The notes under the pieces were generated by a model that saw nothing but the letters and a program-made list of their open reading frames with translations, did not search any database and was not told where the DNA came from. DNA of 64,000 nucleotides from Niabella yanshanensis. GTDB lineage: Bacteria; Bacteroidota; Bacteroidia; Chitinophagales; Chitinophagaceae. The stretch is from assembly GCF_034424215.1 (NCBI RefSeq), contig NZ_CP139960.1, positions 4,960,001 through 5,024,000 on the forward strand, in the 5' to 3' direction. A program made the position numbers and the translations under genes. Positions 8,710 to 50,233 of this stretch are shown here, piece by piece; position 1 is the stretch's first letter; each line of letters opens with the position of its first letter.

Positions 8710-8753
8710 CAGGACAGTTCAGGACGCATGGTTCGGCCGGAAGTTATAATTTG
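8710..8753 (+). promoter_or_regulatory. Operator/promoter A: CAGGAY direct repeat plus -7 box (rhaM-GH105)
   Basis: CAGGAC-AGTT-CAGGAC (8710-8725) is a 10-bp-period direct repeat, so both half-sites face the same side of the helix. TGGTT follows at 8729-8733, and TAATTTG at 8747-8753 begins 21 bp after the repeat, the place of a Bacteroidota -7 box. The start codon of rhaM is 75 bp downstream of that box. The same arrangement occurs at three other promoters in this window. Binding by an activator at the -33 region is an inference. Confidence 0.7.
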
Positions 8754-8827
8754 TGTTTATTAAGTAACGATTGCTGTGATGTGAGAACCATCATCTGCAA
8801 TTCTTATATTGAATAATAACCAGAGAT

Positions 8828-9142
8828 ATGCAGCGTATTGCCTTTAAAATGAAATTGCTTCCGGGATTTGAAGCCGAGTACAAAAAGCGTCATGACGAAA
8901 TATGGCCTGAGTTAAGCGATCTTTTACATGAAACAGGCGTCAGCGATTATGCTATATTCCTGGATAATCAGACGCTTGATTTGCTGGGCGTATTAAAACT
9001 GGCGGATGGAAAAACCATGGATCAATTGCCTTCTCAGCCGGTTATGCAGAAGTGGTGGGCTTATATGGCTGATATTATGGAAACCCATCCCGGCAATGAG
9101 CCCTTGTCTGTTCCGTTACAGGAAGTGTTTTATATGCCTTAA
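8828..9142 (+). CDS. rhaM: L-rhamnose mutarotase
   Basis: The 104-residue protein matches the RhaM/YiiL family in length and motif positions: Tyr18 and His22 in [15 protein letters not shown], Tyr41 in SDYAIFLD, and a Trp pair at 76-77 in [12 protein letters not shown]. These correspond to the active-site His22, Tyr18 and Tyr41 of the characterised E. coli enzyme. It interconverts the alpha and beta anomers of L-rhamnose in the cytoplasm, feeding rhamnose isomerase. It heads a two-gene unit with GH105 (44-bp gap) behind operator A, which ties rhamnose uptake to rhamnogalacturonan breakdown. Rhamnose isomerase, kinase and aldolase genes are not in the window. Confidence 0.93.
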
Positions 9143-9186
9143 TTATTTTCAGTTTCTTTAGTACTTAAATCAAAAATTACATTACG

Positions 9187-10542
9187 ATGGCTGGTCAAAT
9201 TAAAATAGCCTTGCTGCTGGGCTTTGGTGTGTTTGCTGCAACACAGGCAGGTGCACAATACGTGAGTGGAACCGGTAACGATGCAACGATGCCACTACAC
9301 CTGATGAAACCGGACTATGATATACCTTATGGTGAAATCACACCTGAAAAAGTAAAGGTCACTTTGGATCGTGTGTTTAATTACCTGAATGCCGTAACGC
9401 CTGCCAGCCTGGCGAATAAGCAAACGGAAGCGGGTGTAGATATAGCTAAAGCTGATGAGCAGGCAATTTTGAAAAAAGGAGATTTCCGGCTTACCAGCTA
9501 TGAGTGGGGGGTGACCTATACGGGTATGCTGGAAGCTTCGGCCGCTACGGGTGATAAGCGTTATGCACAGTATTCAGTTAACAGGATCAATTTCCTGGGT
9601 GATGTTGTAAAACATTATAAAGCCTTGCAGGGAAAGCAGCCCGGTATTGCAACACCTGTAAGATCGGTTATGCAGCCCCATGCCCTGGATGATGCCGGGT
9701 CTTTATGCGCTGCTATGATTAAGGCCATCAGCGCCGGGGCCAGGGCAGAAGTAGTAAGACCGATGATCGATAATTTCATTCATTATATAATGACCAAAGA
9801 ATTCAGGTTGAGCGATGGAACTTTAGCGAGAAACAGGCCATTGCCTAATACCCTTTGGTTGGACGATCTGTACATGAGTTTACCGGCTTTAGCGCAAATG
9901 GGAAAATTGACGGGTGAAGCTAAATACTTTAATGAAGCTATAAAGCAATACCGGCTATTTGCCTCACGTATGTTTAATACAGATAATAATCTGTACATGC
10001 ATGGCTGGGTACAGGGTATGAACCCACATCCCCAATTTCATTGGGCCCGTGCTAATGGGTGGGCAATTATGACAAAGATTGAATTATTGGATGCTTTACC
10101 CGAAACGCATCCGGGAAGAAAAGAGGTGTTGGAAATGTTGAAAAAGCACGCTGCAGGTCTTGCTTCTTTGCAGGATAAAAAAGGCTTCTGGCACCAGCTT
10201 TTGAACAAAAATGATTCTTACCTGGAAACGTCGGCAACCGCTATCTATGCTTATTGTATAGCGCGTGCTATTAATAAAGGCTGGCTGGATACAAAAGCTT
10301 ATGGACCTATGGTGATACTGGCATGGAATGCTGTAGCTACTAAGGTTACAGATAATGGCCAGGTAGAAGGTACCTGTGTGGGAACAGGCATGGGCTTTGA
10401 TCCGGCCTTTTATTACTACCGGCCGGTAAACAATTTCGCGGCGCATGGTTATGGGCCCGTTTTACTGGCAGGGGCAGAGGTGTACCGCATGTTGAAGCAG
10501 CATCCATTCGAAATTAATGATAGCGCTGTGCAAATGAAATAA
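9187..10542 (+). CDS. GH105 unsaturated rhamnogalacturonyl hydrolase
   Basis: The 451-aa exported protein (signal peptide to about residue 24, ATQAGAQ) has the six-hairpin (alpha/alpha)6 barrel motifs of GH105/GH88: SYEWGVTYTG (Glu106), HALDDAGSLCAAM, the catalytic-region NTLWLDDLYMSLP (Asp226/Asp227), HWARANGWAIM and YLETSATAIYAY. GH105 enzymes hydrate and remove the 4,5-unsaturated uronic acid left at the non-reducing end by lyases. Given RhaM, GH106, CE12 and GH28 around it, unsaturated rhamnogalacturonan oligosaccharide is the probable substrate; other GH105 members act on ulvan. A short insert near residues 80-95 precedes the first barrel helix. A terminator follows. Confidence 0.93.
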   Translation: MAGQIKIALLLGFGVFAATQAGAQYVSGTGNDATMPLHLMKPDYDIPYGEITPEKVKVTLDRVFNYLNAVTPASLANKQTEAGVDIAKADEQAILKKGDFRLTSYEWGVTYTGMLEASAATGDKRYAQYSVNRINFLGDVVKHYKALQGKQPGIATPVRSVMQPHALDDAGSLCAAMIKAISAGARAEVVRPMIDNFIHYIMTKEFRLSDGTLARNRPLPNTLWLDDLYMSLPALAQMGKLTGEAKYFNEAIKQYRLFASRMFNTDNNLYMHGWVQGMNPHPQFHWARANGWAIMTKIELLDALPETHPGRKEVLEMLKKHAAGLASLQDKKGFWHQLLNKNDSYLETSATAIYAYCIARAINKGWLDTKAYGPMVILAWNAVATKVTDNGQVEGTCVGTGMGFDPAFYYYRPVNNFAAHGYGPVLLAGAEVYRMLKQHPFEINDSAVQMK

Positions 10543-10565
10543 CCCCGCTACAGGAATATTTTATG

Positions 10566-10592
10566 GCGCGCTACATACGGTGCGCTTTTTTT
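10566..10592 (+). terminator. Intrinsic terminator after GH105
   Basis: GCGCGC (10566-10571) pairs with GTGCGC (10580-10585), including one G-U pair, across an 8-nt loop, and seven T residues follow. It closes the rhaM-GH105 unit, so SusC1 needs its own promoter (operator B). Confidence 0.75.
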
Positions 10593-10670
10593 GTGCTTAA
10601 CAGTATAGGATATGGTTGGTATAATGTTTAATTATTGTTTGTATGCAAATGAATTGATTGTGAATTGGAG

Positions 10671-10714
10671 CAGGATGGTTCAGGACAGTTGGTTTTTCTT
10701 TATTAGCTACATTG
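10671..10714 (+). promoter_or_regulatory. Operator/promoter B: CAGGAY direct repeat plus -7 box (SusC1)
   Basis: CAGGAT-GGTT-CAGGAC (10671-10686) is followed by AGTTGGTT, with TGGTT at 10690-10694. TACATTG at 10708-10714 begins 21 bp after the repeat. The spacing is identical to operator A. The start codon of SusC1 is 44 bp downstream of the -7-like box. Confidence 0.7.
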
Positions 10715-10757
10715 TATAGTACTTCTAACGATTCTTTAATTTAAACCAAACAGTCAT

Positions 10758-13700
10758 ATGAAAAGAAGCAGGTATTCTTGTTGCTTATTGCTATGCGCAA
10801 TATTTTTTTGGGTGAACCCTCTTGTGTTGCGGGCCCAGCAAGCCACGAAAATTACAGGTACAGTATTAGATGAAAATGCCAGGCCGGTTGCGGGCGCTTC
10901 AGTACAACTAAAAGGCGGAACCCTCACAGTAGCCACGGGATCAGAAGGTGCGTTTGCCATTGATGTACCCATGAACGCAGTGTTGATTATTTCAAGTGTG
11001 GGTTACGAAACCCAGGAAGTAACGGTGACGCAGTCTCAGCTGAATGTGGTGCTCCGTCAGAAAGCTGCTGAAATGGATCAGGTAGTGGTGGTAGGCTACG
11101 GTACACGCAAGAAGAGTGATGTTACCGGTGCTATTGCCTCTGTCGGGGGAGATGATCTTCGCAGTGTACCTGTTACCAATCTTACACAGGCTTTGCAGGG
11201 CCGGGTTACCGGTGTAGTGGCTACGCCAAATAGTTTCCGGCCCGGTGGTGGAAGCACCATTCGTATCAGGGGTAACCGGTCGCTCAACGCAAGTAACGAA
11301 CCACTGTATGTAGTAGATGGTTTCCCGGTAACCTATACCATTGATGATATGAATCCTGCCGATATAGAGTCGGTAGATATCCTAAAAGACGCATCGGCAA
11401 CAGCTATTTACGGGGTGCGCGGCGCCAATGGGGTGGTGCAGATCACTACTAAAAAGGGTAAAGCCGGTAAGGTGAGTGTTACTTATATGGGTAGTAAATC
11501 TGTTGACCAGATCATCAGGCAGTCACCCATATATGATGGGGCCGGAATCGCCGATGCCTGGCGACAGGCTTTCTTTGCTGATAAGCAATATACCGCAGAC
11601 AGGGGTACGGCATCTGTTGCCAATCCGTTGTATTATTATCCAACGGCGGTGAATGATATAGCTCTTTTCTGGACACGTTTTGGCAGTATTGATCAATGGA
11701 ATTCTGTGAAAGATGCCTATACCTGGGATGTGTATGATCCGGCGAATAATATCTTCAGGGCCCGTAAACGACCCACAACAGATGCGGAGAGGGATTTATT
11801 AAGAGGGCTTGGGATCACTTCCCAGCTGGATAGTGTTGATATGTACGACCCTTCAAGAGTTAAGAGCTTCGATTGGCAAAATGAAGTAGGATTGAGGAAT
11901 GGCTCCACTGATAATCACAGCATTTCCGTAACAGGAGGAAGTGATAAGATCAGGTCTTCTTTAAATGCAGGCTACTTTAAGCAAACCGGTATTGAGTACG
12001 CCCAGGATTATACCCGATACTCTATTGGGAATTCGGTGGATTTTAAACCTGTTAAATTCTTAAATTTTGGTACTTCTATCAACTTTATACACAGTATTAC
12101 CAATACCAGCACCAGTTCCTACGGAAATGCCAACGGTATGATACCGTTGGTGACCCCTTATGACAGCGCCGGCAAGTGGGTACTATATCCCAACCGGGAT
12201 CAGCAGATAGTGAGTGCCATCAATGACCGCAATACAGTTATGGATCAAACAAAGGCCAACCGCGTTTTTGGTAATGTGTATGCGGAAGTGACATTATTTA
12301 AGGGACTGAAATACCGGACGATGTTTGGCGCTGATATCCGTAATACCAACAGGGGGACGTTTAACGGGTCTCAATCTTCAATCAGGCAGGGAAGTCCGGC
12401 CAATGCATCCCGTACTGATGTTCGAAGCTCCTCCTGGGTGTATGATAATATATTAACCTATAATACTACTATTAAATCAGATCATTCTATTAATGTTACA
12501 TTATTACATGAAATGCAGAGCCTGAACAGAACAGATACGGCTACCATGAGTGCTAATAATTTGATCTTTGAATCTCAGAAATGGTATTCTTTACAAAAAA
12601 ATACCGACGCAACAGTAACGGGCAGCGGCAATTTTTCCGAAGCTAAATACCTTTCTTATATGGCAAGGGTAGAGTATGGTTTCAGGAGTAAGTATTTACT
12701 TACCTTGAGCAACCGGTATGATAATTCATCTGTATTTGCGGTGAATAGCACCGGGGCCTGGTTCCCGTCAGCATCGCTGGCCTGGCAGTTAGATAGAGAA
12801 GGATTTTTTGCCTCGCAAAATATATTTGATTATGCAAAGTTGCGTTTAGGTATTGGTACGGTGGGTAATGCTTCCATTGCTCCCTATCGTACCGGCGGAC
12901 CTCTAGCCTCTACCAGTTACAGCTGGGGTAACGGTACTCCTGCTATTGGCGCTGCTCCTGCAACGTTTGCAGTTCCTGCACTTACCTGGGAAAAAACCAC
13001 TACAACGAATCTGGGTATAGAGTTCGGCATATTGAACAATAGGATTACCGGTACCATTGATCTGTATAATACGAATACTATTAATCAATTACAGGACAAA
13101 TCTATACCGGCAGCAAATGGAGTAGGTTACCTTTCTGTGAATTTGGGTAAGGTAAATAACCGTGGTATTGAAGTGGCCTTGAGTACCAGAAATATTGATA
13201 ACGATAATTTTAAATGGAGCACCGACTTTATGTTTTCCAGGAACAAAGAAAGACTGATGGATATCGACGGAACCGGTAATAGTAATTATGCGAATCTTTG
13301 GATATTAAATCAACCCCTGCAGGTTTACTGGAGTTATAAAAAAGAAGGTGTTTTCCAATATAGCGACACCGCATCAGGGGGAATCCTTTCGTCTTTATAC
13401 TGGATCAAAAACGGCAAAACCAATACCGCATTCCAGCCGGGCAGGATTAAAATACAGGATACCAATGGTGATTCTACCTTTAGCAATGCTGATAAAGTAG
13501 TATTAGGGTCTCACAACCCGGATTTTGTAGCCAGCATCAATAACACGTTCTCCTATAAAAATTTTGAACTCAACTTTTTGACCTACTTCCGGGTAGGCGG
13601 ATTGTACCGTGTACCAAGGCCGGGCCTGGTAGGCCGGTATCAATCTAACAGAGTAGATTACTGGACTCCTTCTAATCCCTCTAACGATTATCAGCAACCT

Positions 13701-14003
13701 ACTCAAACCAGTGATATCCCGCTTTATTGGGAGGCACTTACTTACAGGAAAGCAACTTTTATACGGGTAAGGAATATTACACTTACCTACCGGGTGCCTA
13801 AAACGCTTACTTCGAAAATCAATGCTAATAACCTGGCCGTGTATGTAACTGCGGTTAACCCCTTCCTGATACATAACGGCGATAAGGATTATGATCCCGA
13901 AACAGTTCCATATAGAGAGTTTCCTGGTAATACCACCAGCCAGGTAGGCCCCAGCTCTTATAGTTTCAAAAGCTATGTATTAGGAGTAAGAGTTGATTTG
14001 TAA
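10758..14003 (+). CDS. SusC/RagA family TonB-dependent outer-membrane transporter (SusC1)
   Basis: The 1081-residue protein has a signal peptide (about 1-26, LVLRAQ), a carboxypeptidase-regulatory-like beta-sandwich (about 31-105, ITGTVLDENARPVAGASV), the SusC hallmark VVVVGYGT (109-116), a plug domain with LYVVDGFPV and VDILKDASATAIYGVRGANG, and a long beta-barrel ending VLGVRVDL. SusC-type transporters import oligosaccharides across the outer membrane using TonB energy, with a SusD lid on top. The cognate SusD starts 29 bp downstream. It sits between GH105 and GH106, so rhamnogalacturonan oligosaccharides are the likely cargo. Expression is probably driven by operator B. Confidence 0.95.
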   Translation: MKRSRYSCCLLLCAIFFWVNPLVLRAQQATKITGTVLDENARPVAGASVQLKGGTLTVATGSEGAFAIDVPMNAVLIISSVGYETQEVTVTQSQLNVVLRQKAAEMDQVVVVGYGTRKKSDVTGAIASVGGDDLRSVPVTNLTQALQGRVTGVVATPNSFRPGGGSTIRIRGNRSLNASNEPLYVVDGFPVTYTIDDMNPADIESVDILKDASATAIYGVRGANGVVQITTKKGKAGKVSVTYMGSKSVDQIIRQSPIYDGAGIADAWRQAFFADKQYTADRGTASVANPLYYYPTAVNDIALFWTRFGSIDQWNSVKDAYTWDVYDPANNIFRARKRPTTDAERDLLRGLGITSQLDSVDMYDPSRVKSFDWQNEVGLRNGSTDNHSISVTGGSDKIRSSLNAGYFKQTGIEYAQDYTRYSIGNSVDFKPVKFLNFGTSINFIHSITNTSTSSYGNANGMIPLVTPYDSAGKWVLYPNRDQQIVSAINDRNTVMDQTKANRVFGNVYAEVTLFKGLKYRTMFGADIRNTNRGTFNGSQSSIRQGSPANASRTDVRSSSWVYDNILTYNTTIKSDHSINVTLLHEMQSLNRTDTATMSANNLIFESQKWYSLQKNTDATVTGSGNFSEAKYLSYMARVEYGFRSKYLLTLSNRYDNSSVFAVNSTGAWFPSASLAWQLDREGFFASQNIFDYAKLRLGIGTVGNASIAPYRTGGPLASTSYSWGNGTPAIGAAPATFAVPALTWEKTTTTNLGIEFGILNNRITGTIDLYNTNTINQLQDKSIPAANGVGYLSVNLGKVNNRGIEVALSTRNIDNDNFKWSTDFMFSRNKERLMDIDGTGNSNYANLWILNQPLQVYWSYKKEGVFQYSDTASGGILSSLYWIKNGKTNTAFQPGRIKIQDTNGDSTFSNADKVVLGSHNPDFVASINNTFSYKNFELNFLTYFRVGGLYRVPRPGLVGRYQSNRVDYWTPSNPSNDYQQPTQTSDIPLYWEALTYRKATFIRVRNITLTYRVPKTLTSKINANNLAVYVTAVNPFLIHNGDKDYDPETVPYREFPGNTTSQVGPSSYSFKSYVLGVRVDL

Positions 14004-14032
14004 GTTTTTTATAAAGGTTAAAACGTAATAAA

Positions 14033-16033
14033 ATGAAGAATCTAGTACTATATATAAAATGTGTTGTTGTAGTTCTTTTCTTATCAGCGGCACTATCGTG
14101 TAACAAGTTTATTAAAGAAGAATTAGTGAGTACGCTTACAGAAGACTACTATAAAACTGATGCGGGACTCGAAGACCTGGTAAAATCTGCCTATGCTCCT
14201 TTACAATGGAAGTTTACGGGTGAGCAATCTTATGCTATGTCCAATTTTGGAACGGACGAATTCCGTGAGGGCGATCAGTTTAATAATGTAAGATACAATG
14301 ATTATGATGCCAACCTGAATGCCAATGACCTGTTTGTGGACGGGCTTTGGACCAACAATTATGCTGGTATTCGCCGCTGTAACCAGGGTATAGAGCTGAT
14401 TTCCGCATACGATAATCCTGCATCTACCACGTTAGGTACGCAGGCCAAAAAAGATTTGAGAGTGGCCGAGCTAAAAGGATTGAGGGCGTTTTACTATTTT
14501 CATTTGCTGCAGCAATTGGGGGGTGTGCCGCTTGTATTGACCGTGCCTAAAGAGGCGCAGTACGAATTTCCCAGGGCCAGCGAAGCCGATGTGTATACAC
14601 AGGTTATTACAGACCTGAGAGCGGCAGCTGCGGTAACCGGTTTGCCCTGGCGTTATACGGCTGCCGACAGGGGACGTGTTACAAAAGCCATGGTGAACCA
14701 TTACCTGGCAAAGGTATATCTTACCAGAGGCAGCGCAGTAACAGAACAGCGCGGACAAAAAGCTACTGATATGGATAGCGCTATCTATTATGCCAATGAA
14801 GTGATCGTAAACAGCGGTCATGTATTGGAAGCCGATTTTGGCAATTTGTTCAATGCTGCATACCCCGATGGTACGATCGCTCCCTTAGGACAGGCTGGTA
14901 CGGCACCACTTAGCAGCAAGGCGAAAATTGAAGCTAACAATGCGAGCAATGAAATTATTTTTGCAGCACAATTCAGCTCCAATCTGTTATTGGTAGGTAG
15001 CGGTGCCAATAATCAAACCCATCTTTTTTATCCATCGCAGTACGACGCGGGAGTAACTGGTATGACCAGAGATTTTTTTAACGGACGACCATTTAGAAGA
15101 TTACGCCCTACCGATTATACTATTGATATTTTTGATAAGGTAAACGATTCCCGGTTTTTTAAAACCTTCCAGACTGTTTATTACCGCAACGCAGCAATAC
15201 CCGCGCAAAGCGCTTCACCGGGGTTGTACTGGACGGCTGCAAATGCGCCTGCTCCGGGCCTGGTTAATTTACCAAAAGTTATGTTGGGTGATACAGCCGG
15301 TTTGTACATTGTTAATCCCCGTAATCTTCCGCTGTTGACATCCCGGATAGCTGCCATGCGCTATTATGCAGTTTTTGCAAGAAATAAACAAACTACTTCC
15401 GGCGGTGAGATTACCAGCGATTTTAATAGTAATAAGTATCTTACTATGTGGAAACTATCCGACCCCATCCGTTTAACCAATACCAATAACGAGGCTAAGG
15501 GTATCAGGAACGGTACTTATGCCAGGTTGGCAGAAACCTATTTGATTATAGCGGAAGCTTATGGCCGGAAAGGAGATTACACGAATGCATTGATATATGT
15601 CAACAGGCTCCGGCAGCGGGCGGCTTATAAAGCAAATGAAACGCGTAGCCCCCAAATATGGCAATATATGGGCGGTCCTGACAATTTAGCCAATACAGAA
15701 GTTAATAATATGGCTACTACCGCATTGTTTACCACCAATGCACCCAGTGAACTGTATCCACCAACCGTCACATCAACACCTGACAGGTTTATTCATTTTA
15801 TGTTGAATGAAAGAACCCGTGAACTTTGTGGCGAGTTTTACCGCTGGGAAGACCTGGTTCGCACCGAAACATTGTTTGAAAGAACCAAATTGTACAATGC
15901 GGATATCAGTCCTTCCTTTGCTACATTCCATAAACGCAGACCTATTCCTTACCTGCAAATGGTAGCTCAGCAAATTGGCGGGCAACCGATGTCGCCCGAT
16001 CAGATGAAAAATTATCAAAATCCCGGATACTAA
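14033..16033 (+). CDS. RagB/SusD family glycan-binding lipoprotein (SusD1)
   Basis: The 666-aa protein has a lipoprotein signal peptide ending LSC-NK (Cys23). The N-terminal SusD-like domain contains TPR-type helices (ELKGLRAFYYFHLLQQLGGVPLV is the family motif around the third helix; here split as ELKGLRAFYYFHLL and GGVPLV). Late motifs are YARLAETYLIIAEAYGRKGD, the NRLRQRA segment, and the conserved C-terminal NERTRELCGEFYRWEDLVRT (split as NERTRELCGEFYRW). SusD proteins bind the glycan at the cell surface and cap the paired SusC. At 666 residues it is longer than the usual 500-600, with extra sequence near residues 280-470, perhaps for a bulky branched ligand. A strong terminator follows. 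Confidence 0.95.
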   Translation: MKNLVLYIKCVVVVLFLSAALSCNKFIKEELVSTLTEDYYKTDAGLEDLVKSAYAPLQWKFTGEQSYAMSNFGTDEFREGDQFNNVRYNDYDANLNANDLFVDGLWTNNYAGIRRCNQGIELISAYDNPASTTLGTQAKKDLRVAELKGLRAFYYFHLLQQLGGVPLVLTVPKEAQYEFPRASEADVYTQVITDLRAAAAVTGLPWRYTAADRGRVTKAMVNHYLAKVYLTRGSAVTEQRGQKATDMDSAIYYANEVIVNSGHVLEADFGNLFNAAYPDGTIAPLGQAGTAPLSSKAKIEANNASNEIIFAAQFSSNLLLVGSGANNQTHLFYPSQYDAGVTGMTRDFFNGRPFRRLRPTDYTIDIFDKVNDSRFFKTFQTVYYRNAAIPAQSASPGLYWTAANAPAPGLVNLPKVMLGDTAGLYIVNPRNLPLLTSRIAAMRYYAVFARNKQTTSGGEITSDFNSNKYLTMWKLSDPIRLTNTNNEAKGIRNGTYARLAETYLIIAEAYGRKGDYTNALIYVNRLRQRAAYKANETRSPQIWQYMGGPDNLANTEVNNMATTALFTTNAPSELYPPTVTSTPDRFIHFMLNERTRELCGEFYRWEDLVRTETLFERTKLYNADISPSFATFHKRRPIPYLQMVAQQIGGQPMSPDQMKNYQNPGY

Positions 16034-16054
16034 GTAGGGATTCCAATAAGTATT

Positions 16055-16107
16055 AATGCCGCTAATCCCCTGGTTATTCTTCAGGAAGGGTTAGCGGCAT
16101 TTTTATT
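16055..16107 (+). terminator. Intrinsic terminator after SusD1
   Basis: AATGCCGCTAATCCC (16055-16069) pairs with GGGTTAGCGGCATT (16088-16101) with one bulged T, and TTTTTATT follows. The stem lies between convergent genes and mainly serves the SusCD1 transcript. Confidence 0.88.
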
Positions 16108-16158
16108 GGTAATACCTGTTATATCTAACAGGTCACTATCCCTGCAAAGCGAAATGCT

Positions 16159-17883: not shown

Positions 17884-18150
17884 TTTGGTGGGCTGGTTGT
17901 TTAGTGACTAATTTATAATAAATGAACTCACGCAATCCTGATAACAGAATGACAGGAGAAAATCTTAAATGAAGGTCAAAATTATTCTGATTAAGAGCGC
18001 TGATATAAACGATCCGGGCTGAAGATCAATTATTTAGAAAGCCGCAAAATAAAACAAAAAAGTTACTTAGGGAAATCAGATGTAATCCCAATTTATGCTA
18101 TCGTTATACCGACCCAAAGTGGGGACATCTGCTACAAAGTGAGTGACCTG

Positions 18151-18243: not shown

Positions 18244-18253
18244 CCAATGACAA

Positions 18254-18297
18254 CAGGATAGTTCAGGATTGATGGTTGATGCAGAACCTTAATTTTA
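18254..18297 (+). promoter_or_regulatory. Operator/promoter C: CAGGAY direct repeat plus -7 box (GH106 operon)
   Basis: CAGGAT-AGTT-CAGGAT (18254-18269) is followed by TGGTT at 18273-18277 and TAATTTTA at 18290-18297, which starts 20 bp after the repeat. The layout matches operators A and B, and the GH106 start is 93 bp downstream of the box. Confidence 0.7.
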
Positions 18298-18389: not shown

Positions 18390-21239
18390 ATGATTTTTAA
18401 ACGGATAAATTTGAGGCCACTGTTATGCAGTGTTGCCTTCGTTGTGATGACGGCTAGCGGCATAAAAGCTCAGCTAGCCTGGCCGGTTATTCGCCAGCAA
18501 CATAAACCCTGGACCCGCTGGTGGTGGGAAGGGAGCGCTGTAAACGAAAAAGGGCTTACCTGGAACCTGGATCAATACCAGAAAGCCGGGCTGGGCGGCG
18601 TGGAAATTACACCCATCTATGGTGTTTATGGTGAAGAGCAGAATTTTGTAAATTTTCTTTCACCCCGGTGGATGCAATTGTTTTCCCATACTTTGAATGA
18701 AAGTAAGCGTTTGGGTCTTGGTGTAGATCTGGCGAATGGTACCGGCTGGCCATTTGGCGGTCCCTGGGTGAAGGATGCAGATGCCAGTAAGGCTATTTTT
18801 CATAAGGTATATACATTGGAGGCCGGCGGCAGGTTGGCAGAACCGGTGACCTTTGAAAGGGAAGGTTTTGTACGTACTGCAAACGGCAAAAAACTTGCGA
18901 TCAAAGCTGTTAACCATCCAATAACTGGCAATAAAAACCTGCAGGAACTGGCTTTAGACCAGGTACAGTTTCCCGGAACATTACCACTGGTCACTTTAAT
19001 GGCTTATAATGAAAATTCGAAACCAATAGATCTTACCAGCAAAGTGTCAACCGAAGGTGTATTACAATGGACGGCACCTGCGGGATCAGGTAAATGGACC
19101 TTGTATGCCTTATTTGAAGGCCTGCATGGCAAGATGGTGGAGAGAGCCGCTCCGGGAGGCGAAGGCTACGCGATAGATCATTTTTCAAAAACGGCTGCCC
19201 AAAACTATTTTAAAAGATTTGATGAAGCTTTTAAGGGTTATGATATCAGCTATCTCCGTTCGTTTTTTAATGACTCTTATGAAGTAGATGATGCACGCGG
19301 AGAGGCCAACTGGACGCCTGAATTCTTTAATGAATTTTATAAACGTAAAGGGTATGATTTGCGTACACAGTTACCCGCATTATTCAATAAGTCAAACGAT
19401 CTTAAGTCTTCTGGAGTGATCTATGATTACCGGTCAGTGATCGACGAGCTGCTCCTGGAGCACTTCACTAAAGAATGGAAAAAGTGGGGGGAAGGGAAAG
19501 GAAAAATGTTGCGCAATCAAAGCCATGGCTCTCCTGCTAATACCTTAGATCTGTATAGTGTTGTAGATATACCCGAAACGGAAGGTAATGATGTGTTAAG
19601 GTTTAAATTTGCTACCTCTGCAGCTAACGTTACAGGCAAAACCCTCGTTTCATCCGAATCTGCCACCTGGCTCAACGAACATTTTCTTTCTTCATGGGGC
19701 GATGTGAAAAAGGCATTGGACCTTTTTTTCCTGGGAGGCGTCAATCATATCTTCTATCATGGAACGGCGTATTCGCCGCAGGAGGCCAAATGGCCCGGAT
19801 GGCTGTTTTATGCGGCTGTTCATTTTCAACCCGAGAGTCCGCAATGGAAGCATTTCCATGCCCTGAATCAATATGTAGCAAGGGTGCAGTCTTTTTTGCA
19901 AAGCGGCCGGCCTGATAACGACCTGCTACTGTATTATCCCATCGCCGATCGTTATTCACAGCCGGGTAATACGTTGTTGCAGCATTTTGATGGCATGGAA
20001 AAGAATTTTGTCGACACGGATTTCGAGCATGTTGCTAGAGAAATGATTGAAAAAGGATATAGCTTTGATTTTTTCTCGGACCGGCAGTTACATCAATTTG
20101 AATTTCAAAATAAGCATATTGTTGCAGGCGGTAATCAGTTTAAAGCTATTCTATTGCCGGCTATTGATAAGATACCTGGATCGTCGATGACAACCATACT
20201 AAACCTGGTAAGGTCTGGCGCTACATTGTTGGTACACCGGCATTTGCCGCAAAATGTACCAGGATTTAATAAAGCATCTGAAAGAACCGCCGCACTGCAT
20301 CAGTTACTTGCTACCTTAAATTTTGATGATAATCCACAAGTACAAACTGCCAGGTTAGGAAAAGGTTGGGTATATAGAAGTGACGATTTGAGCAAACTTA
20401 CCCGTTTTGCAAAAGCCCGGCAGGAAAAACCATTGGCCGATTCTGTTTATATGTTACGCCGTAAGAACGGGCAGGGGCATTTTTATTTTATAAATAATCG
20501 TACGGGGCAAACAGTAAATGAATGGATAAAGCTGGCTGATCCGGCCGCTACAGCTGCTTTGTTCGATCCTGCAAGTGGCACCAAAGGCATTGCCCGCATA
20601 AGACAGGTTGCGGATGGCGGTATCGAGGTATGGACACAGCTGGAACCACATGGGTCTGTAATTATTGAAACTTACCAGTCTGAAAAAACAGGCTCTTTAT
20701 TTCCTTACCAGGAACCTGCCGGTAATACAGCGGCTCTTAACGGGAAATGGAAGCTTGAGTTTTTACAGGGAGGGCCCGGTTTGCCAACCGCGACTACCCT
20801 TGGTCGGTTGGGTTCCTGGACAGAAGTAAATGATGAGGCGGCGAAAAGTTTTTCGGGGATAGCCAGGTACACATTGCAGTTCAATCGTCCTTCAGGTGAA
20901 GCACCCCGATATCTTTTAAACCTCGGAAAAGTAAACGAAACGGCTGAAGTGATTCTTAATGGTACAACAGTAGCAACCCTGATCGGGCCGTCTTTTACAG
21001 TGACAATACCGGCTACAGCCTTCCATTCAACCAACCAACTTGAAATAGTAGTGGCTAACTTAATGGCCAATCGTATTGCTTACATGGATCGTAATAGTAT
21101 GCCCTGGAAAATATTTTACAATACCAATATGCCGGCCAGGAAAGCAGGGAATATAAAAGATGGTTTATTTAACGCAGCGCATTGGAAGCCGTTTCCTTCG
21201 GGGCTTTCAGGCCCTGTTACCTTAACGCCACTAAAATAG
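18390..21239 (+). CDS. GH106 alpha-L-rhamnosidase
   Basis: The 949-residue protein has a signal peptide (to about residue 28, GIKAQ) and the GH106 N-terminal pattern: PWTRWWWEGSAVNEKGLTW, then LGGVEITPIYGVYG, and LGLGVDLANGTGWPFGGP. Next come TIM-barrel segments (SYLRSFFNDSYEVDDARGEA, then RNQSHGSPANTLDLYSVVDI) and a C-terminal beta-sandwich with galactose-binding-like strands (RYLLNLGKVNETAEVILNG). GH106 enzymes remove alpha-L-rhamnose from rhamnogalacturonan side chains or backbone ends by inversion. It leads an operon with three propeller glycosidases and the CE12 esterase, behind operator C. This is the main rhamnose-releasing activity in the locus and agrees with the nearby rhaM. Confidence 0.92.
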   Translation: MIFKRINLRPLLCSVAFVVMTASGIKAQLAWPVIRQQHKPWTRWWWEGSAVNEKGLTWNLDQYQKAGLGGVEITPIYGVYGEEQNFVNFLSPRWMQLFSHTLNESKRLGLGVDLANGTGWPFGGPWVKDADASKAIFHKVYTLEAGGRLAEPVTFEREGFVRTANGKKLAIKAVNHPITGNKNLQELALDQVQFPGTLPLVTLMAYNENSKPIDLTSKVSTEGVLQWTAPAGSGKWTLYALFEGLHGKMVERAAPGGEGYAIDHFSKTAAQNYFKRFDEAFKGYDISYLRSFFNDSYEVDDARGEANWTPEFFNEFYKRKGYDLRTQLPALFNKSNDLKSSGVIYDYRSVIDELLLEHFTKEWKKWGEGKGKMLRNQSHGSPANTLDLYSVVDIPETEGNDVLRFKFATSAANVTGKTLVSSESATWLNEHFLSSWGDVKKALDLFFLGGVNHIFYHGTAYSPQEAKWPGWLFYAAVHFQPESPQWKHFHALNQYVARVQSFLQSGRPDNDLLLYYPIADRYSQPGNTLLQHFDGMEKNFVDTDFEHVAREMIEKGYSFDFFSDRQLHQFEFQNKHIVAGGNQFKAILLPAIDKIPGSSMTTILNLVRSGATLLVHRHLPQNVPGFNKASERTAALHQLLATLNFDDNPQVQTARLGKGWVYRSDDLSKLTRFAKARQEKPLADSVYMLRRKNGQGHFYFINNRTGQTVNEWIKLADPAATAALFDPASGTKGIARIRQVADGGIEVWTQLEPHGSVIIETYQSEKTGSLFPYQEPAGNTAALNGKWKLEFLQGGPGLPTATTLGRLGSWTEVNDEAAKSFSGIARYTLQFNRPSGEAPRYLLNLGKVNETAEVILNGTTVATLIGPSFTVTIPATAFHSTNQLEIVVANLMANRIAYMDRNSMPWKIFYNTNMPARKAGNIKDGLFNAAHWKPFPSGLSGPVTLTPLK

Positions 21240-21280
21240 AGATATTGAGACAATTGAAATACTTACGCTTTGTGCGGGAT

Positions 21281-23910: not shown

Positions 23911-23921
23911 AAATAAAAGTA

Positions 23922-24857: not shown

Positions 24858-24913
24858 ATGCTATAGAGAATGTCTATAGAATAATCACTAAAATCTATAA
24901 TTAAATATTCGAA

Positions 24914-33276: not shown

Positions 33277-33321
33277 AATGATACAATCAACTGTGATTGT
33301 TGCAGGCAATCATGTTCAATT

Positions 33322-41332: not shown

Positions 41333-41342
41333 TAAAGTCTAT

Positions 41343-42746: not shown

Positions 42747-42760
42747 TACAGTTATAGAAA

Positions 42761-44191: not shown

Positions 44192-44193
44192 AT

Positions 44194-45426
44194 TTATCTT
44201 TTGGAAGATTTAATTTCAACTGCATAGATATTTTCCCTTCCTTCGAAATTGGCCCGGAAAATGACCCATTGCTGATCGGGTGAAAAATGTATGTTGGGTT
44301 CTAAACGGTATTGGTGGTGCTTCATGTTCACCAGTTTTTCAGCTTGGAAGCGATCGCCATTAGGGCGGAAATAATAGATCCATTGTCCATCAGGAGCTTT
44401 TGCCACCGAACCGGGATCTCCGCCGTCTCCTGCAAATACTTTGTTGTTTGCCGAGCTTGTGTAATGCACCGACCACTCATTTCTTTGCAGTTCATACCTG
44501 GTAGTTTTACCTGTGGCCAGTTCTACACCTGACACGAAAAAAGTAGATCCGCGTGGCTGCTGCAGATCAAACCATATATAGCGCCCATCTTTGCTGAACC
44601 ATTCATGTCCTGCAATCTCCATTGGGATGGTTCGTTTATGGATTAGTTTTATTGCTTTGCTGTTGACGTCAATGGTCCAGATCCGGTCAACTTTGTGCCA
44701 GGGGCCTTCATGACAGAACATTAACAACGATGGATCAGTGGGGGAGAACTGTATATGATTCAACCAGGCACTATCTGTAAATATTTTATTGAGCGTACCG
44801 TTATTAATATCAATTGTGAACAGGGTTCGGGGTAGCTTAGCTTCGTAGATCAGGTTAAAGTAACTGCTTTTCGCGGGGTTCTGCTTTAAGATATCTTTTT
44901 CAGTATCACTGGTTTTGGCGCCTGCCAATAGTGTGCCATCTGCATTGATGGTAGTGATACCCGCTTTAAAGTCATCAGGAAATACATATACCAGCCTGTT
45001 TTTTTTTGTTGACAGGTTTACTGCAAATACACTGTCTTTTACCTGGTAAAAAGCTTCATTGCGTTGAGGTGATACAATCTCCCCGGTAATAGGTGATGCG
45101 TGATTGGTAAGCCGCTCCGCCTGCAATGTTTTCAGGTCCAGCAGGTACAATTGGCGATCCCGGGCGTTGCTGTTGTAGGTTTCCTGCTTTGCTGCTGGAT
45201 CAACGGTTTTTTCGGTGCTATAGTACACCATTTTATCTCCAACAAAGGGATTGTTATGGAAATAAAAACTCAGGTTGCTCCTGTTGTTATTGGTAAGGCG
45301 CACTATTTTATGATCTGTGTCAGCATCAATCCAGCTATCCGGCATATCAGGCCCTGTTTTTTGCTTTTGTTGAGCAATAGAAGCATGAGCATAAATAGCC
45401 AGCAATATCAGTATTTTGAATTTCAT
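44194..45426 (-). CDS. PL22 oligogalacturonate lyase
   Basis: The ATG at 45426 is the real start, 10 bp after the SusD2 stop; the in-frame extension to 45546 runs through the end of SusD2. The 410-aa protein has a signal peptide (AHASIAQQ, about residue 19) and a seven-bladed propeller of the PL22 type, with MFCHEGPWHKVDRIWTID, EIAGHEWFSKDGRYIW and HHQYRLEPNIHFSPDQQW. These His/Gln clusters form the metal site in characterised oligogalacturonate lyases. It degrades short unsaturated galacturonides to 5-keto-4-deoxyuronate. The export signal is notable, since many PL22 enzymes are cytoplasmic. Confidence 0.87.
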   Translation of the reverse strand: MKFKILILLAIYAHASIAQQKQKTGPDMPDSWIDADTDHKIVRLTNNNRSNLSFYFHNNPFVGDKMVYYSTEKTVDPAAKQETYNSNARDRQLYLLDLKTLQAERLTNHASPITGEIVSPQRNEAFYQVKDSVFAVNLSTKKNRLVYVFPDDFKAGITTINADGTLLAGAKTSDTEKDILKQNPAKSSYFNLIYEAKLPRTLFTIDINNGTLNKIFTDSAWLNHIQFSPTDPSLLMFCHEGPWHKVDRIWTIDVNSKAIKLIHKRTIPMEIAGHEWFSKDGRYIWFDLQQPRGSTFFVSGVELATGKTTRYELQRNEWSVHYTSSANNKVFAGDGGDPGSVAKAPDGQWIYYFRPNGDRFQAEKLVNMKHHQYRLEPNIHFSPDQQWVIFRANFEGRENIYAVEIKSSKR

Positions 45427-45436
45427 ACCTGTTTTT

Positions 45437-46933
45437 TTAATATCCATCATTTTGAGGGTACAGATCCGGAGCTGCATCCAGTTCGGGTTGAGGAACAGGA
45501 TAAATGATATAGTTTTTGTTAAACGGCTGCATTTGATGCTGAACATCTTCGGCGGTGATCCATGCAGGTATTATCTGGTCGATTTTTCCCATCCTGATGA
45601 GATCATACCAGCGGGAACCTTCGCCCACAAACTCTTTTCTTCTTTCTTCAAAGAGGCGATCCAGCGAGACACTCGAAATAGGGGAGAGCCCGGCCCTGAC
45701 TCTTATTTGATTTACTGCCTCATCCACATCAGCCTGCGAACCGGCAGCACCCTTGAGAATACACTCCGCTTTAAGTAACAATACATCTGTGTAACGCAGC
45801 ACAATAAAGTTAATGGGCCAGTCTAACCTGTTAGCAGGTGTTTTGCTTACGTCAATATACTTTTTAATAAAAGATCGGGTTTCTGCTACGCCATTGAAAG
45901 TATAACCGGTTTGAATCGTGAAAGCCTTCCTTGTATCTTCCGCTTCGAAGCTATTTAACAGGCTGGAAGAAACCGGGCGAATCATTAAACCTCCTTGCGT
46001 AGGTTTGCCTTGCGACTGAAACCAGGTATCGGGTGCAAGTAGCCAGGGAAAAGTAGATCCAAGCACAGGAGTGAAGCCTGTGGCGTATTGTACGTCAAAT
46101 ATCACTTCGCTGTTATTCTCATTCGCGTACGAGAAGATGTCTGGGAACGATTGGGAAAACGTATATTTTCCGCTGGCAATAATTTCATTGAGTAATGTCA
46201 GCGCCTGTGAATACTCGTTCAGTCCCATGCCGGGGCCATTTATATCGTAGGTCGGGGCGCTTCTCATCAGGTGCACTAACGCTAAGATTCCTTTTGCAGA
46301 GAATTTTGTTGCCCGGCCCCTGTCGGCTGCGGGATAAGTTTCGGGAAGATTGTCGGCTGCAAATTGTAAGTCCTGAAGAATCAATTCATACACTTTATTG
46401 ACTTCTGATCGTTGAAGTTGCCGTGCTTCTTCGGGTGATACTGCTTCTTCCGTTACAGGTACTCTTCCGAAAATTTTTACGAGGTCGAAATAATAGAAGG
46501 CGCGTAGAAATCTGGCTTCAGCCTCGTAACGCCTGCGAAGCACTTCATCGGTTACAATGCTACCCCTGTTCTGTAAAGCAAGAAGAAATTCGTTGGCGCG
46601 ATAAATTCCTACAAAATTTGTATTCCATGCTTCTATCACATAAGGGTTACCTGCAATAGTTTTGTGAAAACTATTGATGCCTTCCCAGTCCCTCACACCG
46701 CCGTCTGAAACGGCATAAAGGTTGTCTGACCTTGTTTCAGATAAGTTTAAGATGCGATCGGGGTAAGTGCGCAATGAATTATATACCGCATTCAACCCCT
46801 GTGTGAAATCGGCTGGCTGTGTGTAGAAATTTTGTGTACTTAGATTTGAAATGGGTTGCTGATCCAGGTCTTTAGCACAACCTGTTGCAATGATGGTTCC
46901 CAGAAATATGATTAGGTATGTATAATATTTCAT
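45437..46933 (-). CDS. RagB/SusD family glycan-binding lipoprotein (SusD2)
   Basis: The 498-aa lipoprotein has lipobox TGC (Cys19). SusD features are QPISNLSTQNFYTQPADFTQG, EARFLRAFYYFDLVKIFGRVP, LLLKAECILKGAAGSQADVD and the C-terminal RLFEERRKEFVGEGSRWYD. It binds oligosaccharide at the cell surface together with SusC2. It lies 22 bp downstream of SusC2 and 10 bp upstream of PL22. The following enzymes (PL22, GH28, PL1) indicate homogalacturonan-type oligosaccharides as cargo. Confidence 0.95.
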   Translation of the reverse strand: MKYYTYLIIFLGTIIATGCAKDLDQQPISNLSTQNFYTQPADFTQGLNAVYNSLRTYPDRILNLSETRSDNLYAVSDGGVRDWEGINSFHKTIAGNPYVIEAWNTNFVGIYRANEFLLALQNRGSIVTDEVLRRRYEAEARFLRAFYYFDLVKIFGRVPVTEEAVSPEEARQLQRSEVNKVYELILQDLQFAADNLPETYPAADRGRATKFSAKGILALVHLMRSAPTYDINGPGMGLNEYSQALTLLNEIIASGKYTFSQSFPDIFSYANENNSEVIFDVQYATGFTPVLGSTFPWLLAPDTWFQSQGKPTQGGLMIRPVSSSLLNSFEAEDTRKAFTIQTGYTFNGVAETRSFIKKYIDVSKTPANRLDWPINFIVLRYTDVLLLKAECILKGAAGSQADVDEAVNQIRVRAGLSPISSVSLDRLFEERRKEFVGEGSRWYDLIRMGKIDQIIPAWITAEDVQHQMQPFNKNYIIYPVPQPELDAAPDLYPQNDGY

Positions 46934-46955
46934 TTTTTCTGCTTTTGATTAGGGA

Positions 46956-49900
46956 TTAAAAACTGAAGTTTACGCCAAATACCAGCGAGCGGGGAAGGGG
47001 TAGCCCTCCGTAATCGCCGGCTTCGGGATAATTATTATCACCACTCAAATTGGTGTTATTAGCTTCAGGATTCAGGCCGCCTTTATATTTATCGTATCCC
47101 CAAAAGTTTTCAGCCGTTATAAACAACCGGGCTGCCTGAATAACCGCGTTATTTTTGAATACGCCGCCAAGATTGTAGCCCAACGTTACATTTCTCACCC
47201 TGATATAGTCTGAAGAATAAAGCCAGTCGGTATTTTTAATACGACCGAATGTAGAATAGGCTTTGCCTACTACACCCTCGCCAGGATCGGATGCAGACCG
47301 CCATCTGTCTCTATAAAATCCAAGAGCGTTATCCGTAAATCCCTGTCCGGTTCGTCCCAGAGCTCTTCCCAGTAATGAATATACAGATCCGCCGTGCTGA
47401 CCCTGAACGAGCACGGAAAGGTCAAAGTTTTTGTATTTAAAGGTGTTAGTCATCCCCCACATAAAATCCGGATTAGGGTGGCCTACTATCTGCCTGTCGT
47501 TGGCGTCGATAACACCGTCACCGTTAAAATCTACATATCTGGGATCTCCTTCTACCTGTGAGCCATATTTTGCTGCACCATTGGCAATGTCATCGGCTGT
47601 TAGTATACCATCCTGTTTTACCACATAAATACTATAAAGAGGTTCTCCCACTCTGAGGATAGCGTGTGAGATATCGAATGAGGAAGGAATCAGTAATTGT
47701 TGCTGACCACCAGGTAAAGAGATCAACTCGTTTCGATTCAATGTAAGATTAATATTGCTATTCCATTGAAAATCGCTTCTGACAACATTCCTGGTATTCA
47801 GGTCAAATTCCCATCCGGTATTCTTAACCTCACCCGCGTTGGCTAAAACCTGCCCCGAACCAGTAACAGCTAATACCGGAACATAAAACAGCAGGTCTCT
47901 GGTTTTTTTATTATAATATTCTGCAGAAAGGCTAATGCGATTGCGAAGAATGCTAAGGTCTACCCCTATATTAACCATCTGAGATTTTTCCCATCTCAAT
48001 TCTGCGTTGGTAATACCCGAAGGCGCGAATCCTGTAACCTGGTTACCGTTGAAAGTATAGCCATAGTTTCCCAATGTGGCAATGCTGCCGTAGTCGGGAA
48101 TATTATAGTTGCCTGATGTACCAAAGCTGGCACGTAATTTCAGATCACTAATAAAATCCACATCAGACATGAATGACTCACCACTTACCCGCCAGCCGGC
48201 CGAGAATGAAGGGAATACCCCCCATTTTGTATTAGCCCCGAATCTGGAGGAACCATCTCTTCTCATGCTGGCCGATAGGAGGTATTTATTATCGTATCCA
48301 TATTGGAGGCGGGCCAGGTAAGAGAGAAGTATATTCATCGACTCGGTGGCAGATCCGGTTACTGCTACTGCATCGCTTAGCGTAGTTATCGAACCTGACC
48401 TGAAACCTCCCTGCGAAGACATATTCGAGTTTTCTAACTTGTCCGAGTTGTAAGTAAATCCAGCGACAAAAGAAACATCATGCAGGTTGTTGTAGATCTT
48501 GTTGTATGAAATAGTATTTTCATTAACGAAGGTTCTTTTTCTTATGGTATTGTAAGAGCCTGAAGTCAGGGTGGAAAGCTGTGCGAGTCGTGTAGGAAGA
48601 CTGCTCGCTATTATATATGGATTATAACTTTTTGCAGTAATATCCGTATTGTCCAAATTGACAGTTGTTCTCAGGTTCAGACCCGGAATGATTGAATAAT
48701 CTGCATAAACGGTACCCAGTGTTCTGTATCGTTTGGTTTCTCCAATGGTATATTGAAGTTTTGCATAAGGGCTGTTCGTTGACACGCTCCATCTGTATTG
48801 TCCATTTAGTCCTGTATTGGCATATAAACCCATGGTATCCTCCTGCACTGGTGTGAAGCTGAGTGCCTGGTGTAAAATGTTGTCTTTACCCTCTACGCCT
48901 GGGTCGTGGTTAATGCTATAAGTAGGACTGATGTTTACTCCAAACTTCAATTTTTTAATTGCAGTTACTTCTACGTTGGCGCGGGCTGAGTAACTCGTGT
49001 AATCGGTAAATTTTACCATGCCCTCTTGCCGGTTATAGTTACCGGAGATAAAGTATTTCACGTGTTCAGTGCCGCCACTTGCCGACAACTGATGATTTTG
49101 TGTCAGTCCCTTTCTGAAGATTTCATCTTGCATGCTGTACAATGCCAGGCCCGGATAACCCTCCTGGAACCAGCGGTCGTCTGTCATCAGGCTTGTGTTT
49201 ACCTGACCCGCAGCCAGCCCAAGTATTTGTCTTCTTTCTTCATTGGTTTGACTGGCTGTCCGGTTTGCGCCTGATGCCACCCATTGCGCATTGATCATTT
49301 CTGTAGAACGATCAATCCATTCCCGGGGCGTTAGCATATCAAGTCCGCGGCTTCTTTCCATGTAACCTACAACGCTGTTGATACTGATGGTTGATTTTCC
49401 TGTTTTACCTTTTTTAGTGGTAATCAAAACTACTCCGTTACCTGCACGGGAGCCGTATATAGCAGCAGAAGCTGCATCCTTTAGTACCTGTATCGATTCG
49501 ATATCGTTGGGATTAATATTGTCGAGTGGGTTGCCGCTTGCATAATTCCCAGACGCGTTTGGACCTGCGGGTGTCAACGGGAACCCGTCAATTACATATA
49601 ATGGTTCATTTCCTGCAGAGATAGAACTGGTTCCGCGAACCTGCACGCTCAAACCTTTACCCAAGGCACCGGTGGTCTGGCGTACTCTTACCCCGGACAG
49701 TTGCCCAACAAGAGCCTGGTCAACACGTTGTACCGGCCGCTCTTCAAAATTGGCATTCAGCGTGCTTACAGCGCCGGTTACATTTCGCTTTTTCTGCGTT
49801 CCGTATCCAATGACCACCACTTCACTCATTTGTTGCTGCGTTGACGTTAAAACGATCACCATCGCTTCCGTTGTGGCCTTTACGGTTTTTGTCTGATAGT

Positions 49901-50123
49901 TGACATGTGTAATAGTTAACTCCGCAGTAGCCAGGTCTCCGGTGGTTAAAGAAAAATTGCCCCCGGCATCTGTGGTGGTGGTACTGCCCGTATTTAGTGT
50001 CACAGTAGCACCGCTTACCGCCGTATTTTTGTCGTCGGTAATGGTTCCTTTGATTTGGGCTGATTGTGCTGTAGCCATAAAGCTGGCGCACAGCAGAAGT
50101 ACCAGGACTGGAATTGTTTTCAT
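46956..50123 (-). CDS. SusC/RagA family TonB-dependent outer-membrane transporter (SusC2)
   Basis: The 1055-aa protein has a signal peptide (MATAQ, about residue 20), a carboxypeptidase-like beta-sandwich (about 22-95), the SusC motif VVVIGYGT (102-109), a plug (LYVIDGFPL, QVLKDAASAAIYGSRAGNG) and a barrel ending VFGVNFSF. It imports oligogalacturonides with SusD2. It opens operon 2, which runs through nine genes to 33779 with gaps of 2-22 bp and one overlap, plus the 127-bp gap before the final GH28. Operator D lies 67-110 bp upstream of the ATG. Confidence 0.95.
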   Translation of the reverse strand: MKTIPVLVLLLCASFMATAQSAQIKGTITDDKNTAVSGATVTLNTGSTTTTDAGGNFSLTTGDLATAELTITHVNYQTKTVKATTEAMVIVLTSTQQQMSEVVVIGYGTQKKRNVTGAVSTLNANFEERPVQRVDQALVGQLSGVRVRQTTGALGKGLSVQVRGTSSISAGNEPLYVIDGFPLTPAGPNASGNYASGNPLDNINPNDIESIQVLKDAASAAIYGSRAGNGVVLITTKKGKTGKSTISINSVVGYMERSRGLDMLTPREWIDRSTEMINAQWVASGANRTASQTNEERRQILGLAAGQVNTSLMTDDRWFQEGYPGLALYSMQDEIFRKGLTQNHQLSASGGTEHVKYFISGNYNRQEGMVKFTDYTSYSARANVEVTAIKKLKFGVNISPTYSINHDPGVEGKDNILHQALSFTPVQEDTMGLYANTGLNGQYRWSVSTNSPYAKLQYTIGETKRYRTLGTVYADYSIIPGLNLRTTVNLDNTDITAKSYNPYIIASSLPTRLAQLSTLTSGSYNTIRKRTFVNENTISYNKIYNNLHDVSFVAGFTYNSDKLENSNMSSQGGFRSGSITTLSDAVAVTGSATESMNILLSYLARLQYGYDNKYLLSASMRRDGSSRFGANTKWGVFPSFSAGWRVSGESFMSDVDFISDLKLRASFGTSGNYNIPDYGSIATLGNYGYTFNGNQVTGFAPSGITNAELRWEKSQMVNIGVDLSILRNRISLSAEYYNKKTRDLLFYVPVLAVTGSGQVLANAGEVKNTGWEFDLNTRNVVRSDFQWNSNINLTLNRNELISLPGGQQQLLIPSSFDISHAILRVGEPLYSIYVVKQDGILTADDIANGAAKYGSQVEGDPRYVDFNGDGVIDANDRQIVGHPNPDFMWGMTNTFKYKNFDLSVLVQGQHGGSVYSLLGRALGRTGQGFTDNALGFYRDRWRSASDPGEGVVGKAYSTFGRIKNTDWLYSSDYIRVRNVTLGYNLGGVFKNNAVIQAARLFITAENFWGYDKYKGGLNPEANNTNLSGDNNYPEAGDYGGLPLPRSLVFGVNFSF

Positions 50124-50189
50124 ATGATACCTGATTATTTAATAATTAATTGCTGCAACTGGCATGCAATTCAAATGGCATTATCAAAT

Positions 50190-50233
50190 CTAAGGTAGAG
50201 TTAATATTCAAAGCTGCATCCTGCGCCATCCTG
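50190..50233 (-). promoter_or_regulatory. Operator/promoter D: CAGGAY direct repeat plus -7 box (SusC2 operon)
   Basis: On the minus strand CAGGAT-GGCG-CAGGAT (50233-50218) is followed 20 bp later by TACCTTAG (50197-50190), close to TAnnTTTG. Spacing matches operators A-C; the four bases between half-sites differ (GGCG instead of RGTT) and the TGGTT element is replaced by AGCTTT. The start of SusC2 is 66 bp downstream of the box. Confidence 0.6.

Follow-up and report, generated by a model that had tools for sequence, protein, structure and literature searches.

The window considered here (the whole stretch of DNA that was analyzed, 64 kb, positions 4,960,001-5,024,000 of NZ_CP139960.1) belongs to Niabella yanshanensis, whose genome is a single contig of 5,543,186 bp and is referred to as the home genome (G000; G and L numbers label genomes and loci, respectively). 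The window contains four copies of a tandem repeat, CAGGAY-N4-CAGGAY, each at a fixed distance from a TAnnTT-type -7 box. This repeat probably serves as the operator for a rhamnose-glycan regulon that is conserved in the Bacteroidota, bound by an AraR-like GntR protein that would act as a class II activator on a rhamnose signal. The most likely reader inferred for the operator is thus a sugar-sensing GntR/LacI-sensor protein, a candidate regulator that is now named and that the initial annotation of this DNA did not propose.

An exact pattern scan of the window identified four sites and no fifth, with all of the coordinates and strands given in the initial annotation being correct. Dinucleotide shuffles of the window held a mean of 0.03 exact sites, in agreement with the earlier chance estimate of about 0.03, and none of 100 shuffles reached four. 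In a relaxed scan that allowed up to three mismatches together with a TAnnTT box at 36-38 bp, fewer than three mismatches were seen only at the four known sites. The boxes start 37, 37, 36 and 36 bp after the start of the site, which corresponds to the 20-21 bp past the repeat that had been claimed. The operators and the genes behind them are as follows.

8710-8725, + strand: operator 1, CAGGACAGTTCAGGAC, upstream of rhaM-GH105, in the gap 8693-8827 (exact scan)
8747-8753, + strand: -7 box TAATTTG, 37 bp from the start of operator 1 (window scan)
8828-9142, + strand: rhaM, L-rhamnose mutarotase (PF05336)
9187-10542, + strand: GH88-family protein (PF07470), called GH105 in the initial annotation and here
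10671-10686, + strand: operator 2, CAGGATGGTTCAGGAC, upstream of SusC1/SusD1 (exact scan)
10708-10714, + strand: -7 box TACATTG, 37 bp from the start of operator 2 (window scan)
10758-16033, + strand: SusC (10758-14003) and SusD (14033-16033)
18254-18269, + strand: operator 3, CAGGATAGTTCAGGAT, upstream of the GH106 operon (exact scan)
18290-18297, + strand: -7 box TAATTTTA, 36 bp from the start of operator 3 (window scan)
18390-25687, + strand: apparent operon of a GH106 alpha-L-rhamnosidase, GH43-type proteins and a GDSL esterase
50218-50233, - strand: operator 4, CAGGATGGCGCAGGAT, upstream of the SusC2 operon (exact scan)
50190-50197, - strand: -7 box TACCTTAG, 36 bp from the start of operator 4 (window scan)
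44194-50123, - strand: SusC2, SusD2 and an oligogalacturonate-lyase-like protein

A scan of the whole home genome found 13 exact sites versus three for the reversed pattern. Since the reversed pattern contains TAG and is biased low in coding DNA, the argument rests instead on gap position and on the box. Twelve of the 13 sites lie in gaps (one overlapped only by a 106-aa open reading frame, ORF, on the opposite strand), upstream of rhaM, GH28, GH106, GH88-family, GH2, fasciclin-domain or SusC genes. The thirteenth (G000:2948764) is within a 982-aa ORF and has no box. A TAnnTT box is found at exactly 36 or 37 bp from the site start in 11 of the 13, and a twelfth site (5028242) has TAATATTG at the box position. 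The genome-wide check suggested earlier shows exact matches that are not spread inside genes, and the proposal of a common operator with fixed spacing to a -7 box, upstream of degradation operons, is supported.

Conservation was assessed with an unbiased set of 80 GH105 loci (1.63 Mb; the best 80 of more) that were chosen by protein similarity and without use of the motif. Within this set, CAGGAY pairs 10 bp apart occur 48 times versus at most five for any other distance from 6 to 60 bp. The box is present for 38 of the 48 pairs, at 37 bp in 33 and at 36 bp in five. Exact sites were found in 33 of the 80 loci and full elements, defined as an exact CAGGAY-N4-CAGGAY with TAnnTT at 36 or 37 bp from the site start, in 28, with Niabella, Pedobacter, Paradesertivirga, Hufsiella, Arcticibacter, Pontibacter, Parapedobacter, Segetibacter and Arenibacter among the carriers. 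Of the 47 loci that have no exact site, 20 present a one- or two-mismatch version with a box (five from Hymenobacter), and as the remaining 27 have none, the element is common but not universal.

In a close set of 39 genomes, counting the home genome, 17 have the full element. Across the phylum it is present in 29 of 392, 26 of them from the home class; one match to the reversed control was seen in the 392. The operator is conserved in many Bacteroidota. The 29 include likely chance sites in three genomes: those of G132 and G302 are within homologous ORFs of 382 aa, and that of G219 is within an ORF of 532 aa. They also include G200, G248 and G270, with one site each, from outside the home class. 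Loci with called ORFs, which were mostly fetched by motif or by GH105, contain 106 unique full elements. For 104 of them, an ORF on the same strand begins no more than 700 bp away, and in 90 cases out of the 104 there is a match to the labelled genes, chiefly GH105, SusC, GH106, fasciclin-domain and rhaM. Longer arrays of the unit with the same 10-bp period occur upstream of glycan-degradation genes in G045, with four CAGGAY at L305:6579-6614 and three at L306:9717-9742. No published name for the operator was found in titles and abstract openings, which leaves room for a mention in supplements, RegPrecise or full texts.

The spacing was also counted over 165 unique exact sites, 123 of which have TAnnTT (98 at 37 bp and 25 at 36 bp); many of the underlying loci were fetched by motif, making this count biased, and the 80 protein-fetched loci are its unbiased version. 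Alignment of the 98 sites at offset 37 gives the unit DCAGGAYRS, twice, with CAGGAY fixed by the choice of sites, and conservation between the repeat and the -7 box is weak. An RGTT spacer noted earlier is present in three of the four window sites and is not general, the spacer being R-S-N-D over the 98 aligned sites. The TGGTT described before the box is likewise not general, as no column between repeat and box stands out. A TTTG at -33 is found in none of the aligned sites, in part by construction because the operator occupies that place.

Passages of a study on F. johnsoniae place TAnnTTTG at -12 to -5 and describe the -33 motif there as weak anyway (PMC6847099). If this numbering is assumed, the operator is predicted to lie at -49 to -34 (center -41.5) when the box is at 37 bp, and one base nearer (center -40.5) when it is at 36 bp. 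A center of -41.5 is the classical position of a class II activator. What the promoters present, in terms of a sigma-ABfr/class II arrangement, is a TAnnTTTG-like box at a fixed distance and an operator in place of the -33 TTTG. Together, the geometry and the absent TTTG suggest class II activation; the position put forward in the initial annotation fits both. Spacing that is nearly invariant over many genera is what a polymerase-contacting activator needs and what a repressor would not.

The initial annotation had treated the repeat as a pectin operator. This scope was too narrow since the element is also found at L-rhamnose operons and at an ulvan locus. In G426, a gene with an ulvan-lyase domain (box at 37) and a gene for a PL28 ulvan lyase (box at 38) each have an exact operator upstream, and a one-mismatch copy is upstream of a GH78 rhamnosidase gene. 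At this locus (L307:3342-15297), where PL28 and PLH30-trefoil ulvan-lyase genes follow exact operators, an AraC gene (3342-4226) sits between them and the GH78 gene. The copies upstream of L-rhamnose genes are mostly degenerate. Of the 18 loci that contain rhamnose genes, 14 have a copy by a fixed rule of at most two mismatches, a box at 35-38 bp and a position within 450 bp, compared with 6 of the 155 other ORFs in these loci and 0.1% of shuffles. Among the misses, L371 of the home genome has a copy upstream of an unlabelled first gene, a class II aldolase; L386 has a copy visible in the raw sequence; L388 has one with three mismatches; and L372 begins within the operon. In the home genome, a copy lies in the intergenic region that separates the GntR gene from a divergent operon leading to rhaT and a rhamnulokinase-like gene. 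In the reference set from G020, RhaT and the bifunctional rhamnulose-1-phosphate aldolase/dehydrogenase score above the NCBIfam cut-offs, while the isomerase and kinase match below them. The sugar common to the element-bearing loci, as read from their sequence, is rhamnose.

The candidate reader is encoded at G000:51603-52643 in the home genome. A GntR protein of this kind was found in 24 of the 29 full-element genomes versus 32 of the 363 others (56 of 392 overall; Fisher p 2.5e-18), and all 16 genomes with at least two elements have it. The five that lack it are G132 and G302, where the site is inside an ORF, and G200, G248 and G270, with their single sites outside the home class; among the 24 positive genomes, G219 has its only site inside an ORF. 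When rhaM-positive genomes are considered, the element is present in 21 of 46 that have the GntR protein versus 1 of 30 that do not (p 5e-5), and the protein is encoded by 15 of the 17 element genomes in the close set. G025, with 11 exact sites and no GntR match at E <= 1e-30, was considered as a counter-example and set aside; it has no full element and the site examined is inside an ORF.

The GntR gene usually adjoins L-rhamnose genes and is often divergent from them. In 20 loci chosen by the GntR gene, 17 hold both aldolase and isomerase genes and an eighteenth, the home locus, holds rhaT. In G391, the GntR gene is the last of an apparent operon behind the only full element of that genome. 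Some GntR-bearing genomes that have no exact site keep the tandem and the spacing with the letters changed, for example CATAAC-N4-CATAAC. By a looser rule, a copy is found in 10 of the 30 regions examined, each the 500 bp upstream of a GntR gene, versus 1.5% of shuffles.

The protein may be considered in terms of two domains. An N-terminal GntR winged helix is indicated by PF00392, above cut-off for L371:7604-8644 and L297:1045-2076, and by profile A2, which matches the AraR DNA-binding domain 4egy at 5.2e-11. An AlphaFold model of L188:16491-17528 (pLDDT 86.7) matches SghR, LacI, PurR and RbsR in Foldseek. The sensor family PF13377 is above cut-off for L159:16193-17344 (29.4 of 26.5 bits), just below for L297 (26.2) and below for the home protein (20.6). 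The predicted make-up of GntR helix and LacI-type sensor is confirmed by the model and profile searches.

From these observations, a mechanism may be proposed. Tandem 10-bp units, normally two, stand 36 or 37 bp before the T of a TAnnTTTG-like box, where a -33 TTTG would otherwise sit, and would be bound by the AraR-like GntR protein. Digestion of rhamnogalacturonan or ulvan would yield L-rhamnose or a catabolic product as the ligand. The liganded protein would then activate from the class II position, replacing the sigma contact at -33, and one cytoplasmic sugar signal would turn on rhamnose catabolism and distant polysaccharide loci together.

Near some operators there is also a LacI-like palindrome, GCAANCGNTTGC, with 11 exact copies within -150 to +170 of the 123 unique full elements and 25 in 3.76 Mb overall. 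Its starts relative to the operator start are -31 (seven copies), -13 (three) and -52 (one), at L012, L153, L154, L159, L162, L164, L165, L166, L167 and L290. This phasing suggests a second regulator; a LacI-family gene is located in the home rhamnose region (L390:6897-8024). A further word, AACGATTG, is found within 200 bp downstream of 16 of 122 full elements versus 0.7 expected, mostly in the presumed 5' leader and at variable position, while its reverse word occurs once in the same regions. It is present at 8766-8773 of the window and in the leaders of L001, L002, L005, L006, L012, L155, L162, L163, L233 and L250, and is perhaps an RNA element.

Several points weigh against a GntR activator as the reader. 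The nearest characterized relative, AraR, is named a repressor and its operator is palindromic, which the proposed operator is not; the LacI-like palindrome could be the site of the GntR protein instead. Co-occurrence can arise from ancestry and lifestyle, and the element is also tracked by rhaM (22 of 29 genomes, p 7e-12) and, less fully, by an AraC protein (12 of 29, p 3.6e-9). As the 20 loci were chosen by the GntR gene, linkage ties the protein to rhamnose and leaves room for other readers. In the close set, G017 has one element and no GntR match, and G018 has one element and only a 28%-identical paralog. Conversely, 32 GntR-bearing genomes have no exact element. In the 500 bp before the GntR gene, a diverged copy is absent from 13 of 17 loci of such genomes (the 17 including a second paralog of the home genome) and present in four, and a copy is absent from 7 of 13 loci of element genomes and present in six. 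Two close GntR homologs are encoded in the home genome, one of which has no labelled rhamnose gene next to it. The home-genome stretches that were read yielded neither the isomerase nor the bifunctional aldolase. Loci of genus g40, where a pectinesterase-like gene is beside SusC and no rhamnose gene was recognized, fit the rhamnose theme least.

Tandem sites of 10-11 bp are bound by OmpR-type proteins. It is conceivable, if unlikely, that the activator site is real and is read by another conserved, unlinked regulator, such as one of the OmpR/PhoB or DeoR type, with the GntR protein binding the LacI-like palindrome or something else. The few fixed offsets of the 11 palindromes near full elements would suit this arrangement, the direct repeats of DeoR-family RhaR have a 10-11 bp period in passages of PMC3870299, and the regulators compared across genomes were of the GntR, AraC and LytTR types. 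Against it, the GntR protein is the sole regulator found recurring beside element-bearing rhamnose genes, in loci that were chosen by its gene, and the single AraC protein tried has a less close phyletic match. A somewhat less probable explanation keeps the GntR protein as the reader and makes it a repressor that covers the -33 region until released by rhamnose or a derivative. LacI-type sensors usually release DNA on ligand binding, and AraR carries the word repressor in its entry name; NanR, in the sections of PMC8012715 considered, is a repressor as well. A plain repressor would not require the nearly invariant box spacing or the lack of a -33 TTTG, the latter argument being softened by the weak -33 motif of F. 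johnsoniae (PMC6847099).

The window itself encodes a regulator that was considered and rejected as the reader of the operator, and its partner.

29717-30460, - strand: LytTR response regulator
30448-33309, - strand: Reg_prop/His_kinase sensor, partner of the LytTR regulator

This pair (29717-33309) sits inside the pectin locus and LytTR proteins bind direct repeats, but those repeats are about 21 bp apart, not 10. Close orthologs of the regulator were found only in G003 and G012 of 38 relatives, where the frame looks split, and among the 17 full-element genomes of the close set, 14 have no more than distant paralogs. That this pair reads the operator is thus extremely improbable.

Other regulators were examined and set aside. 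Homologs of the AraC protein of L132 (E <= 1e-20) were found in only 12 of the 29 element genomes, and both G045 and G415 lack them. AraC genes near sites in L158, L167 and L307 have no mutual orthology. The one in L057 of the home genome (8230-9087), located between two operators, is an Ada-like fusion of an AraC helix and a methylguanine methyltransferase domain. The home genome has 54 AraC-type places, none in the window, and home-built AraC and LytTR profiles gave no match in the 20 GntR loci. A hand-made pattern for a LuxR/SusR-like helix had one match in the loci examined, beside the chance site of G219. ECF sigma factors are near some loci, not consistently.

Polysaccharide loci of Bacteroidota are usually described in terms of one local sensor per locus, be it a hybrid two-component system (HTCS), SusR or an ECF sigma/anti-sigma pair. 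This view comes in part from PMC3878776, as far as its passages considered here go. If the proposed regulon is true, a shared operator and a probable cytoplasmic sugar sensor would amount to a second layer of control, global in scope, that ties the degradation of pectin and ulvan to rhamnose catabolism. Members of the regulon would be predictable from sequence alone, and a compact promoter inducible by rhamnose may become possible for Niabella, Pedobacter and their relatives. A broader version can be offered tentatively, and with somewhat less than even confidence: the rhamnose regulon may extend through the class, or perhaps the whole phylum, with an AraR-like GntR protein, of a type that represses elsewhere, serving as a class II activator on tandem 10-bp repeats near -41.5. 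Some promoters would add a LacI-type protein at a fixed upstream offset, and for rhamnose-containing polysaccharides a single cytoplasmic signal would override the logic of one sensor per locus.

Among known systems, HTCS_Rgu-1 and HTCS_Rgu-2 of Bacteroides thetaiotaomicron also have direct-repeat operators before rhamnogalacturonan loci with SusC/SusD; in the relevant passages of PMC3878776, their sites consist of units of 12-16 bp that recur at about 21 bp, and they are read by an AraC-type hybrid two-component protein encoded in the locus. In contrast, the operator described here has a 10-bp period and is one operator for distant loci and rhamnose operons. The 80 GH105 loci have 48 pairs at distance 10 versus five at 21, and there is no AraC-type gene in the window. 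The RhaR regulons (AraC in Bacteroides, DeoR and LacI elsewhere) similarly have rhamnose catabolic genes as targets, with direct repeats of 10-11 bp period for DeoR-type and 21 bp for AraC-type RhaR; the candidate here differs in being a GntR/LacI chimera, and no GntR-type rhamnose regulator is described in the passages of the RhaR literature considered (PMC3870299). The AraR subfamily of GntR, exemplified by B. subtilis AraR, shares the GntR winged helix, the GalR/LacI-type sensor and the control of sugar utilization in the portions of PMC4494728 consulted. Unlike AraR, a repressor, the candidate is predicted to bind direct repeats in tandem at the position of an activator. E. coli NanR has another sensor domain and a shorter repeat period than the operator here. 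As presented in parts of PMC8012715, NanR is a GntR-family protein that binds cooperatively to a tandem-repeat operator, (GGTATA)3, but its operator lies downstream of the polymerase site. For GntR proteins on tandem sites, there are precedents in NanR, FarR and NagQ, according to passages of PMC4494728 and PMC8012715.

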